Part shown: piece after piece, positions 6,783-23,981 of the stretch | Layout of the letters: every line of letters begins with the position of its first letter | Position numbering within the stretch: the stretch's first letter is position 1 | Source of the DNA: a virus | Direction: 5' to 3' (one strand) | Length of the DNA: 24,933 nt | Virus record (IMG/VR): IMGVR_UViG_3300046499_000519 | Coordinates: 1 to 24,933 of that record | Notes under the pieces: generated by a model | Told to the model about the DNA's origin: nothing | Databases searched by the model: none | Seen by the model: the letters and a program-made list of their open reading frames with translations, nothing else | Translations under genes and position numbers: made by a program

Positions 6783-7073
6783 TTACGGCTTCGGCAGCTC
6801 GGTCACGAACGTGCCGATGCCCGGCTGCATCTGCGCAAGGCCCGCTTCTCGCAGCTCGGTCAGCACCCGGCGCGCCGTCATCTGCGCGATCCCGAACTCG
6901 CCGTGGAGTGCCAGCACGCCCGGCAGTTGCTCGCCCGGCGCATACGTGCCGTCTGCGATCCGCGCCTCGATGATCTCGTACACCTGCTGCCATCGCGGGA
7001 TGTCCGGCTTCCAGTCCATGATCTCGACGCTAGGCAGGACAGGCCTACCCGGCGAGACGAGATTGCCTGACAC
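6783..7073 (-). CDS. Small GntR-family winged-helix regulator without effector domain
   Basis: Leftward gene, GTG at 7073 (96 residues) or ATG at 7019 (78 residues); neither has a strong ribosome site. The product is a bare GntR DNA-binding domain: PRWQQVYEIIEARIADGTY, PGEQLPGVLALHGEFGIAQM, TARRVLTELREAGLAQMQPG, then IGTFVTELP. There is no ligand-binding domain. Small GntR proteins (KorSA, TraR types) repress transfer and replication genes in Streptomyces plasmids and integrative elements, which matters because an FtsK/TraB-like gene lies at 21299. Tandem repeats sit at its start and suggest autoregulation. It lies between two terminators, so it is probably transcribed on its own and could act in the lysogen. 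Confidence 0.75.
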   Translation of the reverse strand: MSGNLVSPGRPVLPSVEIMDWKPDIPRWQQVYEIIEARIADGTYAPGEQLPGVLALHGEFGIAQMTARRVLTELREAGLAQMQPGIGTFVTELPKP

Positions 7074-7895: not shown

Positions 7896-7900
7896 TTCGG

Positions 7901-7945
7901 TAGACCCTGTGGGACTCGAACCCACAACCAATGGATTAAAAGTCT
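7901..7945 (-). other. attP core: 3' half of a tRNA-Lys(UUU) gene
   Basis: Read leftward, 7942-7901 runs from the anticodon loop CTTTTAA (anticodon TTT at 7940-7938) through the variable region and T-arm (GTGGG-TTCGAGT-CCCAC) to an acceptor strand AGGGTCT with discriminator A; CCG follows, so CCA is not encoded. The 5' side of the anticodon stem mismatches after two pairs, and no D-arm or 5' acceptor strand lies at 7946-8000. It is therefore a 3' fragment, not a working tRNA gene. Tyrosine-integrase elements use such fragments as attP so that integration rebuilds the host tRNA. The integrase gene is 220 bases away. Confidence 0.82.
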
Positions 7946-8091
7946 GCGTGGCCATCAAGTCGCCCTGTCTCGCCCCGTGATGCTCTGTGCCGGGCTGCGC
8001 CGTGGAGTGCTGGTCAACTGGCTATCGGGGTCGCTCTGAGGTCTACTCTCATGCCGTCTCGTGCCGCCCCATGTCGGGCAATTCCGGGACG

Positions 8092-18592: not shown

Positions 18593-18814
18593 ATGGCCGA
18601 TCTTTCCATGCCCGCCTGCTCGGACGACACCACCCCGTTGCCCGAGCGCAGCGCCCTCGACACCGCCATCGCCCTGGCCCAGCGGAGCCTCGCCAACTAC
18701 GGCCGCCCCGACTTCCGCGACCCGAACGCCATCAGCCACGCCCACGGCCACATCACCGAGTCGCTCCGCATCCTGCTCCACACCCTCGGCGTCGAGACGG
18801 GTGAGGACCAGTGA
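18593..18814 (+). CDS. Small hypothetical protein
   Basis: ATG at 18593 follows AGGAGGAG; 73 residues, mainly one or two helices (LDTAIALAQRSLANYGRPDF, HITESLRILLHTLGVETG). It overlaps the next gene by 4 bases. No family is recognised. Confidence 0.55.
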   Translation: MADLSMPACSDDTTPLPERSALDTAIALAQRSLANYGRPDFRDPNAISHAHGHITESLRILLHTLGVETGEDQ

Positions 18815-19194
18815 GCACCGAGCCCCGCACTGTCACCCTCGCCACCATCGACCGCGGCCCGGTGACGATCCCCGAGCCCTCGTGGTGCCAGGGGCACAGC
18901 CACCACGACCCCGAGACCGAGTACGTCGACGTCATCCACGGCAGCCCGGAGATCAGCCTCACCTTCCACTCCGCCGTGCTGCTCGCCGCGGGCCTGGTCC
19001 AGTCGCCGCACGCCAGCGTCGACGCCACCCCCGGGCTCGGCGGCCCGACCCCCGGAGTCTCGGTCCACCCGCTCGGCGAGACCCTCGGCCCGGTCGACCT
19101 GTACGAGCTCGCCGCCGCACTCGACTCCTACGCCGACCGCCTGCGCGACCTCGCCGACCAGCTCGACACGATCCTCACCGGGGGTGGCCGGTGA
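18811..19194 (+). CDS. DUF6907-type protein
   Basis: GTG at 18811 overlaps the previous stop; 127 residues. EPSWCQGHSHHDPETEYVDV followed by a His-containing strand and the helix LYELAAALDSYADRLRDLAD match my memory of DUF6907 proteins of Streptomyces. Its Cys/His residues could bind metal. It is coupled to the membrane protein downstream by GTGA. Function unknown; 11275 is a second, larger protein of this type. Confidence 0.65.
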   Translation: MSTEPRTVTLATIDRGPVTIPEPSWCQGHSHHDPETEYVDVIHGSPEISLTFHSAVLLAAGLVQSPHASVDATPGLGGPTPGVSVHPLGETLGPVDLYELAAALDSYADRLRDLADQLDTILTGGGR

Positions 19195-20042
19195 GCCGCA
19201 TCCGTCGCGCCGTCGCCTGGCTGGCCCGCCCGTTCAAGCGGACCGCCCCGCACACCGGCCGCCGCCCCTCAGCGCCGCTGTGGGTCCGCGGACTCACCGC
19301 CGGCGGACGCCCCATCGTCCTCGGCGTCGCCCTCCTCATGTGCGCGCCCGGCGAGTACCACCTCGCCGAGACCGCCGGATGGGACGACCCCTTCACCTAC
19401 GGCATGCCGGTCGTCCTGTCCGCCTACGCGGGCATCGCGGCCGCCGTCGCCTCCACCCGACGCCGCGGTGACCGGGGCCGCTGGTCCGCCATCATCGGCG
19501 CCTGCCTCGCCCTCGGCCTCGCCATGGCCGCCCAGGTCGTGTCGCACCTGATCACCACCGGGCACGTCATCGCCGACCAGCCCGTCCTGATCGCCGTCAC
19601 GAGCCTGGTCCCGCCCGCCGTCGTCGGCCACCTGCTGCACCTCGCGGCCAGCCCGCCGGACGGCCACCAGGACGCCCGGGACGCCGAGGACGCGACCGCG
19701 TCCGACCCCGCCCCGAGCGTCCCCGTGACACCAATTGGTGTCACGGCCGAGCCCGTCGAGCCGCCCACCGTCACCCTCGAACGCGACCCTCAGCAGGACG
19801 CCACCGGGACGCCCGAACTCCCGCCCGGGACGGGGCAGGACGCCGAGGACGCCGAGGACGGACCGCCGCCCGAGCCACCCCTCATGACGTCCGCTCAGGT
19901 CGCCGCGCAGTACGGCATCGACCCGTCCACCGTCCGCTCCTGGGTGGCGGCCGGACGCCTCACCGTCCACAGCAAGGACGCCCGAGGACGCAACCTCTTC
20001 CACCCGGACGCCCTCCCCGAACGACAGGCGGTCACAGCATGA
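19191..20042 (+). CDS. SpdB-like membrane protein with C-terminal helix-turn-helix
   Basis: GTG at 19191 overlaps the previous stop; 283 residues. After a basic head come three to four membrane segments (about 40-56, 68-90, 98-120 and 130-152). A long Pro/Asp-rich linker with repeated DAEDA (about 155-230) leads to a MerR-type HTH (about 232-275: MTSAQVAAQYGIDPSTVRSW, VAAGRLTVH). The layout resembles the plasmid spread proteins (SpdB) and DUF2637 proteins of Streptomyces conjugative elements, which work with TraB in spreading DNA through the mycelium. The linker carries a 24-base DNA palindrome at 19723-19746. Membrane topology is clear; the spread role is inferred from the layout and the FtsK gene downstream. 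Confidence 0.62.
   Translation: MSRIRRAVAWLARPFKRTAPHTGRRPSAPLWVRGLTAGGRPIVLGVALLMCAPGEYHLAETAGWDDPFTYGMPVVLSAYAGIAAAVASTRRRGDRGRWSAIIGACLALGLAMAAQVVSHLITTGHVIADQPVLIAVTSLVPPAVVGHLLHLAASPPDGHQDARDAEDATASDPAPSVPVTPIGVTAEPVEPPTVTLERDPQQDATGTPELPPGTGQDAEDAEDGPPPEPPLMTSAQVAAQYGIDPSTVRSWVAAGRLTVHSKDARGRNLFHPDALPERQAVTA
19723..19746. repeat. Perfect 24-base palindrome inside the SpdB-like gene
   Basis: CCGTGACACCAA (19723-19734) is followed directly by its exact complement (19735-19746). It lies in the linker-coding part, where the protein sequence (VTPIGVTA) gives no reason for symmetry. It looks like a binding site for a dimeric regulator. Confidence 0.6.
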
Positions 20043-20203
20043 TGCGCCTGCTCTTCGGAGCCCTCCTCGGCCTGCTCGCCGCCTTCCCGTCGCTCCTCGG
20101 CCTGGCCGCCACGGCGGTCCTGCACCCGGTCGTCCTCGCCGTCCTGGTCGGCGTCCTCGCCTGGCCGCGTCTCGCCCGCACCCTGCGGAGGTGGACCACG
20201 TGA
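20039..20203 (+). CDS. Very small membrane protein
   Basis: ATG at 20039 overlaps the previous stop (ATGA) and its TGA at 20201-20203 overlaps the next GTG; 54 residues. It starts MMRLLFGALLGLLAAFPSLL, and a second hydrophobic stretch (AVLHPVVLAVLVGVLAW) leads to a basic end (RLARTLRRWTT), so two membrane helices are likely. Four-base overlaps on both sides support it. Tiny membrane proteins of this kind are usual in Streptomyces spread operons. Confidence 0.6.
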   Translation: MMRLLFGALLGLLAAFPSLLGLAATAVLHPVVLAVLVGVLAWPRLARTLRRWTT

Positions 20204-20517
20204 GCGACGCTCTCGCCAAGGCAGAGGCCGCGGCATCCGAAGCCGCGGTGAATACGGCCGCCGTACAGGTCGCCCTCGCCGCCATCGAGCTGGCCAAGCT
20301 CGCCCAGCAGCAGCCCGCCGCCCAGCAGCCCGCATGCCACCAGGCGCACCGTCAGGGCCGCAGCACGGGCGAGTGGCTGGGCATCGGTGGCGCCGTGTGC
20401 GTCGGTGGTGTCGGCATTGCGTTCGCCTCGATCGCCATCGCCATCTGCGGCATCTCCGTCGCCATCCTCGCGCTCGTTCTCCGCTCCATCTGGAGCGACA
20501 TCCAGAAGCACCGCTGA
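20200..20517 (+). CDS. Small membrane protein with N-terminal amphipathic helix
   Basis: GTG at 20200 is chosen over the in-frame GTG at 20191, because GGAGG at 20187-20191 is spaced correctly for 20200; 105 residues. Residues about 1-40 form an Ala-rich helix (SDALAKAEAAASEAAVNTAA), then a Gln/His-rich patch, then one long or two short membrane helices (IGGAVCVGGVGIAFASIAIA, ICGISVAILALVL) and a short basic end. Probably a spread-type accessory membrane protein; function inferred from place only. Confidence 0.58.
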   Translation: MSDALAKAEAAASEAAVNTAAVQVALAAIELAKLAQQQPAAQQPACHQAHRQGRSTGEWLGIGGAVCVGGVGIAFASIAIAICGISVAILALVLRSIWSDIQKHR

Positions 20518-20530
20518 CCAGGAGGAACCC

Positions 20531-20740
20531 ATGTACCGAGAAGCGCACCTGGAGCTCGCGAACGAAGCGGTCACCAAGGCCGAGCGGCTCGCCGGGTGGG
20601 CGGAGAACGCGGCCCGCGGCGACGGCCCGCACAAGGCCGTCCCCTACGCCGCCGCCGGCACCCTCTGGGACTCGATCGCCCGCACCCACCTGCTCATCGC
20701 CCAGGCCATGCCCGACGACGACACCACCCCGGAGGCCTGA
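20531..20740 (+). CDS. Small helical protein, function unknown
   Basis: ATG at 20531 follows AGGAGGAA; 69 residues. It is helical throughout (REAHLELANEAVTKAERLAG, WDSIARTHLLIAQAMPD) with an acidic end. It resembles, in size and pattern, short proteins in Streptomyces plasmid spread operons; the resemblance is weak. Confidence 0.55.
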   Translation: MYREAHLELANEAVTKAERLAGWAENAARGDGPHKAVPYAAAGTLWDSIARTHLLIAQAMPDDDTTPEA

Positions 20741-20741
20741 C

Positions 20742-21017
20742 ATGACCGAGCGCACCGCCGCCTGGCCGGAGGGTGTCATCGCCCGCTACCTCACCGTCGC
20801 CGGTGCCCACGTCGACATCTGGTACGACACCGGCACCCTCCGCACCCGGTGCAGCGGCGAACGCTGCGCCTGGACCGTGCGCAAGTCGACCCGCGTCTTC
20901 TACACCGACTCCGTCGCGGAGCGGGACGAGAAGATCACCGCCGCCGTCCCCGCGCTCCAGCCCGACGTCCAAGCCCACGCCGAGCGCTGCCGCGCCATGC
21001 CCCGCCCCACCACCTGA
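20742..21017 (+). CDS. Small Cys-containing protein
   Basis: ATG at 20742, one base after the previous stop, with GGAGG at 20731-20735; 91 residues. It has TRCSGERCAWT near residue 36 and HAERCRAMP near residue 80, a C-x4-C plus H-x3-C set likely to bind zinc. This type of small protein is common in Streptomyces phages and mobile elements. Function unknown. Confidence 0.6.
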   Translation: MTERTAAWPEGVIARYLTVAGAHVDIWYDTGTLRTRCSGERCAWTVRKSTRVFYTDSVAERDEKITAAVPALQPDVQAHAERCRAMPRPTT

Positions 21018-21036
21018 CGGCTCAGGAGACCCCGAT

Positions 21037-21213
21037 ATGGCGTTCACCAGCAAAGACCCGCATACCGCAGCCGAGATCCTCAAGGTCGTCGCGCTCGGCG
21101 TCCGCATCGAGCGCCGCCAGGCCCGCGGCAAACCCGTCAAAGCCCTGGAGAACCGCGTCGAGCGCATCCGCGAGGACGCGCAGAAGCGCGAGGACGCCCG
21201 CGGACGCAAGTAG
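21037..21213 (+). CDS. Small basic helical protein
   Basis: ATG at 21037 follows AGGAGA; 58 residues. Rich in Arg, Lys and Glu, it looks like one long helix (AAEILKVVALGVRIERRQAR, LENRVERIREDAQKREDARG). Its stop TAG lies in the second GTAGCTACACCCC copy. Function unknown; a DNA- or FtsK-binding role is only a thought. Confidence 0.5.
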   Translation: MAFTSKDPHTAAEILKVVALGVRIERRQARGKPVKALENRVERIREDAQKREDARGRK

Positions 21214-21222
21214 CTACACCCC
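21210..21222. repeat. GTAGCTACACCCC, copy 2
   Basis: Identical to 18488-18500, here 77 bases before the FtsK-like start and running into the hairpin at 21221. Confidence 0.45.
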
Positions 21223-21262
21223 GGGGACGGCGTCCTACCGCCAAGCACGGCGCCGTCCCCGG
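21221..21262 (+). terminator. Hairpin upstream of the FtsK-like gene (attenuator)
   Basis: Perfect 12-bp stem, 21221-21232 (CCGGGGACGGCG) with 21251-21262, 18-base loop. There is no T-tract. It lies between the small basic protein and the FtsK-like gene, so it could limit read-through into the translocase. Confidence 0.5.
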
Positions 21263-21298
21263 GCCCGGACCGCCCAACAGAACGACCGGAGAGCCAGC

Positions 21299-23401
21299 AT
21301 GACCGACACACTGATCAAGCCGCCACAGGACGCCGACCAGGACGCCGAGGACGCACGGCAGGACGCGCCGGACGCGGTCGAAGACATCGAGGCCGTCGAC
21401 CGTCCCGACAACCCTCTCGCCGACTGGCTCACCGTCCCCGACGCGCCGATCCTGCCCGCCTGGGCTCGCAACTGGGAGTCCGTCCGTGCCAACAGCGGCG
21501 CGTTCGTGAAGGTCACCTGGTGGCACACCCGCTACCACTCCCTCCGCAGCCCCAAGTACGGCGCCAAGGTCGTCGGCTACTCCGCGCGCGGCGCCTTCCG
21601 AGGCGGACGACGCCTGTGGCCCGTCCTCGCCGCCCAGGACCACACCCGGGCGGTCAAGGCACTCGCCGCCCAATCCAAGGCCAAGCCCGAGGACGACACC
21701 GTCGCCCAGCGCTACCAGGTCGCCCACCGGGACCGCACCCTCGCCCGCCGCTGGCGCTGGGGCGCCGCGCTCGGCCTCGCGTCCGCCGCGGCCGTCGCCC
21801 TCAACTACGCCTCCCTCGGCCTCCAGCTCGCCGCCAGCTGCATGATGTGCGGCGGCCTGGCCGCCATCGGCTGGTCCGACGAGGCACAGATCCTCGACCA
21901 CGGCACCCCGCCCCTGCGCATCGCCATGGACTCCCAGCAGCTCAACGACGCCCTCCGCGCCACCGGCCTGCTCAAGCAGGGCAAGGGCGACGACGACGGA
22001 CCCAAGGTCAACTGCGTGATGGGGCCGCTCCGCGACGGCAAGGGCTGGGCAGTCGTATTCGACCTGCCCCGCGGCGGTGGCAAGACCGCCTCCGACGTCC
22101 TCGCCAAGCGGACCGCCATCGCCGCCGAGCTCAGCGTCGACGAGATCCAGGTCATCATGAGCCGCGTCCGCGCAGCTCACGGCGGCAACGCAGGCCGCGT
22201 CTCGATGTGGGTCGCCGACGACGACCCCTACCTCGCCCCGCCCACCCCGTCGCCCCTGGAGGGCATGGACGCCTTCTCCATCTGGGACCCGATCCCCTTC
22301 GGCCAGGACGCCCGCGGCAACCGTGTCACCCTGCCCATCGTCTGGCAGTCGATGTTCTTCGGAGGCCTGCCCCGGCGCGGCAAGACCTTCTCCCAGCGCC
22401 TCCTGACCGCCGCCGGCCTCCTCGACCCCTACGTCCGTCACTACGTCTGCGACTTCAAGGGCGGCCAGGACTGGATCCAGACGCGGCAAGTCGCCCACCG
22501 CCTGGTCCTCGGCGCCGAAGAGGACGCCATCCTCGCCTTCCGGGCCCTGCTGAAAGAGCTGCTCGCCGAGATGGAGCGCCGCTTCTCCATCCTGCGCGGC
22601 CTGCCCACCTCGATCTGCCCCGAGGGCAAGCTCACCCCCGAGATCGTCAAGCGCTACAACATGCCGTTCGTCCTGTTCACCGTCGACGAGCTGCAGGAAG
22701 CGTTCCTCGCCGTCGACGACCAGGAGCGCGAGGAGATCATCAACGACATGGCGCGCATCGCCCGCCGCGGCCCCGCCGCCGGGTTCATCTCCAACTACGC
22801 CTCCCAGCGCCCCGACGCCAAGTCCGTGCCCACCAAGCTCCGCGAGATCATCACCATCCGCTACTCGACGCAGGTCACCGACCAGACGTCCTCCGACATG
22901 ATCCTCGGCAAGAGCAAGGCCTCCCAGGGCGCGGACGCGTCCGTCCTCTCCGAGGAGCACAAGGGCGTCGGCGTCCTCGTCACCGGTCCGGCATCCTTCG
23001 TCACCGTGAAGGCCGACATGCTGGAGACCGCCGCCTTCAACACCATGTGCGCCAAGGGCCGCGCCCTGCGCGAAGGCTGCGGCCAGCTCACCGGCGACGC
23101 CGCCAACGACCCCAGCGTCATCGCCGAAGCCTCCGGCATCACCATCAGCCCCGTCCTGTCCGACTGCCTCGCCGTCATGCGGCACAGCCCCAAGCTCCAC
23201 ACCGTCGACCTCCTCGCCCGGCTGGAGAACCTCGACGAGGACTACGGCGACTGGGACGCCGAACGCCTCGCCAAGGAGCTGGAGGACGCCGGCGTGAAGC
23301 GCATGACCAAGCAGGTCAACATCGGCGGCAAGAACCTCGCCGGATACCGCCGCGAGGACCTCGAAGCCGCGATGCCAGCCGAGCTCCTCAACGCCCGGTA
23401 G
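21299..23401 (+). CDS. FtsK/SpoIIIE-family DNA translocase (TraB/TraSA-like)
   Basis: ATG at 21299 follows GGAG seven bases upstream; 700 residues. Residues 10-35 are an acidic Asp/Ala repeat. About 154-191 hold two membrane helices (WGAALGLASAAAVALNYASL, CMMCGGLAAIGW). The FtsK ATPase runs from about 325 to 570: Walker A GLPRRGKT (356-363), YVCDFKGGQDW, Walker B FVLFTVDE (457-464), and the ASQRPDAKSVPTKLREII motif. From about 630 a winged-helix-like end (VDLLARLENLDEDYGDWD to GYRREDL) may bind DNA. In Streptomyces plasmids and integrative elements such single proteins move double-stranded DNA between hyphae. With the SpdB-like and small membrane genes upstream this looks like a transfer module; a role inside the phage cycle is the alternative. 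Confidence 0.85.
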   Translation: MTDTLIKPPQDADQDAEDARQDAPDAVEDIEAVDRPDNPLADWLTVPDAPILPAWARNWESVRANSGAFVKVTWWHTRYHSLRSPKYGAKVVGYSARGAFRGGRRLWPVLAAQDHTRAVKALAAQSKAKPEDDTVAQRYQVAHRDRTLARRWRWGAALGLASAAAVALNYASLGLQLAASCMMCGGLAAIGWSDEAQILDHGTPPLRIAMDSQQLNDALRATGLLKQGKGDDDGPKVNCVMGPLRDGKGWAVVFDLPRGGGKTASDVLAKRTAIAAELSVDEIQVIMSRVRAAHGGNAGRVSMWVADDDPYLAPPTPSPLEGMDAFSIWDPIPFGQDARGNRVTLPIVWQSMFFGGLPRRGKTFSQRLLTAAGLLDPYVRHYVCDFKGGQDWIQTRQVAHRLVLGAEEDAILAFRALLKELLAEMERRFSILRGLPTSICPEGKLTPEIVKRYNMPFVLFTVDELQEAFLAVDDQEREEIINDMARIARRGPAAGFISNYASQRPDAKSVPTKLREIITIRYSTQVTDQTSSDMILGKSKASQGADASVLSEEHKGVGVLVTGPASFVTVKADMLETAAFNTMCAKGRALREGCGQLTGDAANDPSVIAEASGITISPVLSDCLAVMRHSPKLHTVDLLARLENLDEDYGDWDAERLAKELEDAGVKRMTKQVNIGGKNLAGYRREDLEAAMPAELLNAR

Positions 23402-23545
23402 AGGGGTAGGGCTCTACAACCCCCGCTACGAGACCCCCTCTTGACCACCCCTACCCGGCGAGTGGATCTAGAGGGGGGTCTCTACCGCCATAGACCCCCC
23501 TGTAGTGGGCCCTCACCTGCGAAGTAGTGGGCGTAGAGGGGTTCT
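23398..23545. repeat. Repeat cluster downstream of the FtsK-like gene (clt/operator-like)
   Basis: GTAGAGGGG occurs at 23398-23406 and 23533-23541, with CTAGAGGGG at 23468-23476. GTAGTGGG occurs at 23502-23509 and 23524-23531 (22 bases apart). GAGACCCCCTCT at 23430-23441 is an inverted partner of AGAGGGGGGTCTC at 23470-23482. No gene is seen from 23402 to 23588. In Streptomyces plasmids TraB binds short repeats in a clt locus; this cluster directly after the translocase is a candidate. It could also be the operator of the 23589 HTH gene. Confidence 0.45.
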
Positions 23546-23588
23546 TAGGAATGACCCTGAAAACCCCCGCAGGCCGCATCATGGGAGC

Positions 23589-23789
23589 ATGGAGTCGCAG
23601 ATCATCCGGCCCGGCCACCTCACCGCCCACCAGGTCGCCCGGCAACTCGGCATCACCCTCGGAGGCGTCCGCCTCCTCGTCCACCGCGGACAGCTCACCC
23701 GCTCCGGCGGCACCGTCGGACAGCCCTGGTACCCCATCCAAGACGTCGCCGCCCTCGCAGCCAAACGACAGACCCGCAAGGCCGCTTGA
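23589..23789 (+). CDS. Small helix-turn-helix protein
   Basis: ATG at 23589 gives 66 residues; GGGAG is too close to be a good ribosome site, so the start is uncertain and an in-frame GTG at 23505 exists. TAHQVARQLGITLGGVRLLV followed by HRGQLTRSGG and WYPIQDVAALAAKR is an AlpA/MerR-type HTH with wing. It could control the transfer block or the late genes. A leaderless start is possible. Confidence 0.6.
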   Translation: MESQIIRPGHLTAHQVARQLGITLGGVRLLVHRGQLTRSGGTVGQPWYPIQDVAALAAKRQTRKAA

Positions 23790-23858
23790 CCGCAGGTCAG
23801 CGACATGTAACGCTTTCGACGTACAGCTGTGCCCGCACACGGGCACCACACGCGCACA

Positions 23859-23895
23859 CGAAACCCCGGAACGGCCCTGAGCCCCCGGGGTTTCG
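23859..23895 (+). terminator. Terminator after the small HTH gene
   Basis: Perfect 11-bp stem, CGAAACCCCGG (23859-23869) with 23885-23895, 15-base loop. The stem itself ends in GGTTTCG and TCGTGTC follows. It works in either direction on stem strength, but the T-run is short. Confidence 0.6.
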
Positions 23896-23981
23896 TCGTG
23901 TCACAGGACGGACACACCACCCCCACCTGCACAGACCTGCGGAACACTGAGCCCCTCACCACCAGTTCCAAGGGGGGAACC

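Follow-up and report, generated by a model that had tools for sequence, protein, structure and literature searches.

A TraB-like DNA pump gene with an adjoining clt-like repeat array in temperate Streptomyces phages, a putative module for moving unpackaged phage DNA

What does a DNA pump of the conjugation type do in a phage genome? The question is raised by the virus record IMGVR_UViG_3300046499_000519, an incomplete, metagenome-type entry of 24,933 nucleotides without a completeness estimate, which was analyzed over its whole length (hereafter, the window). A single, tightly packed plus-strand cluster (positions 19191-23401) encodes a membrane protein in the position of Spd proteins, two small membrane proteins, small accessory proteins, and a 700-residue FtsK-type ATPase. 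The initial annotation had listed all these genes and placed them between phage replication genes and the HNH/terminase region, and both statements were borne out: primase, DUF3987, and SSB genes lie upstream, while downstream come an HNH gene and the first part of a small terminase gene. We propose, with moderate confidence, that the cassette is a TraB-like double-stranded DNA (dsDNA) transfer module with its own clt, which would move unpackaged phage DNA through the mycelium. The proposal draws on homology, gene order, a repeat array, the pairing of pump and array alleles, purifying selection, and exchange with actinomycete integrative and conjugative elements (AICEs); DNA binding, hexamer formation, transfer, and its timing are predicted features.

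The ATPase gene (ftsK, 21299-23401, plus strand) encodes a TraB-like FtsK-type dsDNA translocase with transmembrane (TM) helices, a RecA motor, and a predicted C-terminal winged helix. The closest relatives found, 64 to 75% identical, reside on Streptomyces AICEs and plasmids; the closest annotated one (68%) belongs to a Streptomyces decoyicus plasmid, in which the gene row reads DUF6251, small gene, DUF6257, FtsK. TraB of plasmid pSVH1, which has been studied experimentally, aligns with the window FtsK at 26.7% identity over 591 amino acids (aa) (E 4e-39). Hydrophobic segments at residues 157-175 and 173-191, which correspond to model helices at 133-169 and 173-192, provide the N-terminal membrane segment, and the Walker A and B motifs of the motor contain the invariant residues G361-K362-T363 and D463-E464. 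In the AlphaFold model, with a mean predicted local distance difference test score (pLDDT) of 77.5, a C-terminal winged helix spans residues ~618-690 (helices 618-626, 635-645, and 654-663; strands 632-634, 672-675, and 678-684), where pLDDT is mostly 80 to 90. Among PDB folds, Foldseek ranked FtsK and TcpA, a conjugation protein of clostridia, highest (E about 1e-14). Homology, the pSVH1 alignment, the FtsK tree, and the fold matches all place the ATPase with the conjugal TraB/AICE translocases of Streptomyces, as had been suggested. The S. decoyicus plasmid record (locus L006, 1-29140) consists of two copies of one 14.57-kb unit, with repeated annotated proteins, and is thus a head-to-tail dimer.

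Directly behind ftsK lies a feature that the initial annotation had overlooked, an array of GTAGNGGG/TAGAGGGG repeats (23398-23541, plus strand). The GTAGNGGG repeats occur in both orientations in the noncoding stretch after the gene, and the first copy shares bases with the stop codon of ftsK. The pattern GTA[GA]NGGG, which was derived from the window itself, has 5 copies in 196 bp where the remainder of the window predicts 0.03, and 0 of 200 shuffles equaled the observed number. It is enriched in almost all other phage, AICE, and plasmid loci whose FtsK is at least 64% identical, and no such enrichment was found in loci with distant FtsK proteins. In pSVH1, five copies of GACCCGGA, which we take to be the published TraB recognition octamer of this plasmid, stand at the same position, directly after traB. 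The array of the window is thus, by sequence and position, a candidate clt. TraB proteins recognize 8-bp repeats at clt through their winged helix, and in pWTY27 clt takes in, besides the 3' end of tra, 159 bp next to it (PMC4170104, PMC3583192). Chance is a poor explanation for the module as a whole, because the gene set recurs in independent phage contigs and isolate prophages and the array is enriched.

An ACCTGC- or AGCTGC-like element (23514-23523 in the window) followed by two direct repeats marks the right end of the arrays in several families, and pSVH1 has GACCTGC at the corresponding position; the element is perhaps a second protein site within clt.

If the array were the recognition site of the pump, the two should change together. 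A first set of loci (24 from viral contigs and 43 from bacterial contigs) was extended with loci around three terminase queries collected from viral contigs. With tblastn, an FtsK gene was detected upstream of the large terminase gene (TerL) in 26 of the 81 loci that have at least 5.5 kb (5.5 to 7 kb) before TerL, and an iterative profile search of 234 new loci identified 35 FtsK genes, every one of them on the same strand as TerL. The FtsK families occupying this phage slot differ from that of the window (24 to 31% motor identity), and each has an array of its own at the same place: CGAAACC/GGTTTCG, CTAGCA, CAGTGA, and AGGGAG. A free-choice 6-mer test recovered the arrays in most loci of these other families as well as the pSVH1 repeat, mostly with 0 of 60 shuffles scoring as high; it missed the degenerate GTAG array in some loci of the window family (L006, L029, and L031 were at background).

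Two phages closely related to the window phage are most informative. L093 shares its Spd-position protein (85%), 54-aa membrane protein (83%), HNH protein (89%), and TerL (94%), and L090 shares the small terminase start (96%), TerL (95%), the helix-turn-helix (HTH) gene that follows the array (79%), and the gene after it (100%). In both, FtsK is only 27 to 28% identical to that of the window and the array is of the GTTTCG type. Since pump and array both differ amid near-identical neighbors, the array is tied to the pump rather than to the phage backbone or to the gene that comes next. At the sequence level the arrays are pump specific across families, as cognate clt repeats of a TraB-type system would be, and we consider that the array belongs to the pump in the manner of clt. 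Within the window family, simple counting also associated winged-helix classes with repeat variants (Fisher test, 2e-9); this result was set aside because the tree holds only ~3 independent contrasts.

The L090 comparison also bears on the possibility that the repeats are operators for the HTH gene (66 aa; 23589-23789, plus strand; MerR-like, phrog_2474, E 5e-12) or for another phage regulator and have no connection with FtsK. Phage operators are often repeated, and many phages encode a 66-aa HTH protein behind the array. Yet in L090 pump and array are both replaced next to a largely conserved HTH gene, AICEs carry the array with other downstream genes, and pSVH1 has repeats at the same place, so that an operator function is improbable and was rejected.

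How is the cassette distributed? Gene maps and family scans sorted many of the loci as phages (TerL, portal, and head genes) and others as AICEs (GntR, PrimPol, a Rep-like gene, an Xis-like gene, and integrase), where "AICE or plasmid" stands for a locus whose available flanks, at most ~10 kb on each side, showed no packaging gene. The phage label changes at least six times on the FtsK tree, with single phages inside AICE clades, and FtsK identity reaches 96.3% between phage L029 and AICE L051 and 92.4% between phage L031 and AICE L053. FtsK proteins are 87 to 90% identical among phages whose terminases are 62 to 84% identical or fall in different clusters, and 66 to 68% identical between phages whose terminases are 78 to 83% identical. 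The window and L014 share one block (19183-23900) at 96% nucleotide identity, with far less similarity outside; it begins with the Spd-position gene and runs past the array to include the HTH gene, located at the right boundary of the cassette that is exchanged. Wherever the sequence suffices, the same layout recurs with different FtsK families: a gene of DUF6907 size, a TM protein, a two-TM protein of ~55 aa, a TM protein of ~108 aa, small proteins, FtsK, the array, and a 66-aa HTH protein.

Such mobility, together with the presence of FtsK in only part of the related phages, would also be expected if the module were passing AICE cargo without a function for the phage. The reading frames are full length and open, dN/dS among the phage copies is 0.21 to 0.28, and several FtsK families are found with the same accessory layout in the same slot. 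Mere cargo is therefore a quite improbable explanation, and the cassette is, on these sequence comparisons, under purifying selection and exchanged with AICEs.

Two integrative elements of ~15 kb, L025 (1-14667) and L026 (1-14987), combine integrase and TerS/TerL genes with an Spd-FtsK-array module, and no portal or capsid gene was found in either. They are perhaps phage satellites that also carry the transfer module.

A motor with its own recognition site follows the logic of TraB and clt, the selection of self DNA, which suggests that the phage moves unpackaged DNA across septa or between hyphae. In the proposed mechanism, subunits of the FtsK-type protein would form a ring anchored in the membrane, and its C-terminal winged helix would recognize the GTAGNGGG array beside its own gene as a clt on the phage genome. 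The ring would drive phage DNA, in circular or replicating form, across septal cross-walls or through points of contact between hyphae, with the Spd-position, 54-aa, and 108-aa membrane proteins assisting. Besides forming virions, the phage would in this way spread as naked DNA through a mycelium and perhaps from one mycelium to another. A wider picture, in which an uncultured group of temperate Streptomyces phages spreads both by virions and by naked circular DNA, pumped between hyphae by a TraB-like translocase of the phage that recognizes its own clt array, and in which phages and AICEs exchange several pump/array specificities, is plausible, but we hold it with somewhat less than even confidence.

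Alternatively, FtsK may act on phage or host DNA inside the infected cell, for example by clearing closing septa of DNA, segregating replicated genomes, or assisting packaging, with no DNA leaving the compartment. The gene stands between replication and packaging genes on the same strand, and replication or segregation roles have been suggested for FtsK-like genes of actinophages (PMC11536984, PMC4569894). On the other hand, the proteins most similar to FtsK are conjugal translocases, found in AICEs and plasmids that share the accessory genes and the position of the array. The arrays on the phage genome differ with the FtsK allele, which points to recognition of the phage's own DNA, and most of the related phages surveyed do without FtsK. 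FtsK proteins also remain 87 to 90% identical beside TerL types of different clusters. We regard a purely intracellular role as unlikely.

Several results weigh against a TraB-like transfer module. In family searches of the kind proposed in the initial annotation, the NCBIfam model of the plasmid TraB equivalog (NF041214) scored 16.8 bits (E 0.0019), far below its cut-off of 800, and the Spd-position protein of the window had no significant match to SpdB2/DUF2637. Because of the NF041214 score, we call the protein TraB-like and not an equivalog. It also falls just below the cut-off of Pfam FtsK_SpoIIIE. The membrane protein of the window is not recognizable as SpdB2 from its sequence, and the association between winged-helix classes and repeat variants within the family is not significant once phylogeny is taken into account. 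Finally, since no FtsK was found in the 5.5 to 7 kb before TerL in many related phages, the gene is dispensable for phage growth as such.

Is the Spd part of the module present? The Spd-position gene (19191-20042, plus strand) encodes a 283-aa protein with hydrophobic stretches near residues 34-52, 99-117, and 126-149 and a C-terminal HTH domain of the MerR/BldC type (HTH_17, residues 231-275, Pfam E 2.3e-5). The label "SpdB-like" was not upheld: neither Pfam nor profile-profile comparison (hhalign) gave a significant match to SpdB2/DUF2637, and homology was rejected. The TM part of the AlphaFold model is too poor to use (overall pLDDT 59; HTH part >90). Nevertheless, 9 of 25 slot-equivalent proteins of other phages match DUF2637 (best E 3.6e-17), and the window protein has the same slot and architecture, a TM region with a C-terminal HTH domain. 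The idea of an Spd-like set is thus only partly right, SpdB membership being unsupported for the window protein itself; spd genes are reported to be very diverse (PMC4170104). This makes the Spd part of the case the weaker one.

Several of the remaining genes are shared with AICEs. The module is preceded by a gene for a DUF6907 protein (18811-19194, plus strand; 127 aa; PF21848, E 2e-26; cluster of 26 loci), which many phages and AICEs have close to the module. Then follow, all on the plus strand, the 54-aa membrane protein identified by hydropathy (20039-20203; cluster of 16 loci), whose position is taken by a two-TM protein of similar size beside other FtsK families, and a 108-aa protein with a C-terminal TM segment (20191-20517; cluster of 31 loci), which can be aligned across phages with different FtsK families and AICEs. 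Two accessory proteins of 69 aa (20531-20740; cluster of 12 loci) and 91 aa (20742-21017; narrow distribution, cluster of 5 loci) precede a 58-aa DUF6257-like protein (21037-21213). The last is below the Pfam cut-off (DUF6257, E 0.0034) and is homologous to the cluster of genes preceding ftsK in AICEs and plasmids according to hhalign (probability 96%, E 3e-9).

Upstream of ftsK, a stem-loop with a 15-bp stem (21220-21263, plus strand) has a predicted folding energy of -40.2 kcal/mol (z -2.97) and begins no more than ten bases after the preceding gene's stop codon. In most loci ~85 bases separate ftsK from the previous gene, and a stem-loop precedes it in phages and AICEs alike. The consensus structure from 48 loci has both-sided changes in 7 of 7 pairs, a search of Rfam gave no match for it, and a comparable hairpin precedes pSVH1 traB. 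The stem-loop may hold down expression of the pump, an excess of which would be harmful.

To which kind of element does the window belong? From the left end, it contains the end of the gene for the tape measure protein, then other late genes, those for endolysin and holin, integrase and repressor genes on the minus strand, and a long plus-strand run with Cro-like and Xis-like genes that continues with primase, DUF3987, SSB, the module, HNH, and the small terminase start at the window edge. The full-length copy of the latter in L011 matches phrog_83 and is followed by TerL. An attP core (7900-7948, no strand) equals the 3' end of tRNA-Lys(TTT), adjoins the integrase gene, and matches a host att site at 98% across 49 bp; since it lies between the lysis genes and integrase, the contig represents the excised order of a temperate phage. 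A relative whose integrase is 68% identical is integrated at tRNA-Lys in Streptomyces sp. WAC 01529, whose chromosome sequence is complete, as a 42.1-kb prophage between two att copies, with tRNA-Lys at one end. With its integrase, terminase, tail, and lysis genes, the window virus is a temperate tailed phage of Streptomyces (soil). It does not conform to the definition of AICEs (PMC3218068), namely integrase, RepSA/RepAM/Prim-Pol replication, and Tra without virion genes: integrase and a Tra-like protein are present, but the replication genes are of the Toprim primase/DUF3987 kind, and there are tail, lysis, and terminase genes as well.

A phage joined to an AICE by misassembly might come to mind for an incomplete record of this kind. 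However, L011 repeats 13.6 kb at 99.98% identity and continues into TerL, and the WAC 01529 prophage has the same layout within its chromosome; since these independent assemblies agree, misassembly is effectively refuted. Among 50,697 records of isolated phages, searched with the window, CGAAACC, CAGTGA, and AGGGAG types of FtsK and with the window-type terminase, no relative closer than ~27% (FtsK) or ~40% (TerL) was found; prophages and metagenomes are thus the sole sources of this group in the present analysis.

Gene order, which was to be compared according to the initial annotation, resembles that of pSVH1 and AICEs. Like the window, pSVH1 (L077) combines an FtsK-type pump bearing an N-terminal TM segment and a C-terminal DNA-binding domain (predicted in the window) with a stem-loop leader and short repeats right after the pump gene. 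It has SpdB2 and one small gene upstream of traB, where the window has its Spd-position protein, lacking an SpdB2 match, and several small genes. Unlike the window, pSVH1 is a plasmid with Rep and no virion genes; its pump is 27% identical and its repeats are GACCCGGA instead of GTAGNGGG. The AICEs L051, L053, and L035 are closer, with FtsK proteins 65 to 69% identical to that of the window (and up to 92 to 96% identical to those of phages L029 and L031), and share DUF6907, the 108-aa protein, DUF6257, the stem-loop, and the array in various combinations. They differ in having PrimPol/Rep and often GntR-type genes, without capsid or tail genes, instead of Toprim primase/DUF3987, structural, and lysis genes.

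The circular Pseudonocardia plasmid pPaSha2 (L007) has an annotated DUF2637 gene beside FtsK as well as terminase, Bet, and holin genes on the replicon, but its FtsK is 33% identical and an array was not found 3' of ftsK. It is a further phage-like replicon in which these two genes are neighbors. FtsK/SpoIIIE ATPases are annotated in the isolated actinophages Gilgamesh, P1312, and Geonosis, although the Gilgamesh protein is just 26.6% identical over 42% of the protein and neither an Spd set nor an array is described for these phages in the published papers found. FtsK-like genes in actinophages and TraB modules in plasmids and AICEs are thus already known; in the open-access literature (subscription journals were not covered), no description of an Spd/TraB/clt cassette in phages was found.

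If the transfer module operates as proposed, a virus would use a conjugation-type pump on its own genome to cross the septa of its multicellular host, and it could reach cells that lack the phage receptor or that block virions. The several FtsK alleles at one phage locus, each with its own repeats, would constitute a testable specificity code, and clt sites of AICEs in the window FtsK family could be predicted from the arrays.

A short GntR-like gene (6783-7073, minus strand, 96 aa) is located between the lysis genes and attP in the window; AICEs of the window FtsK family have GntR regulators near their transfer genes.

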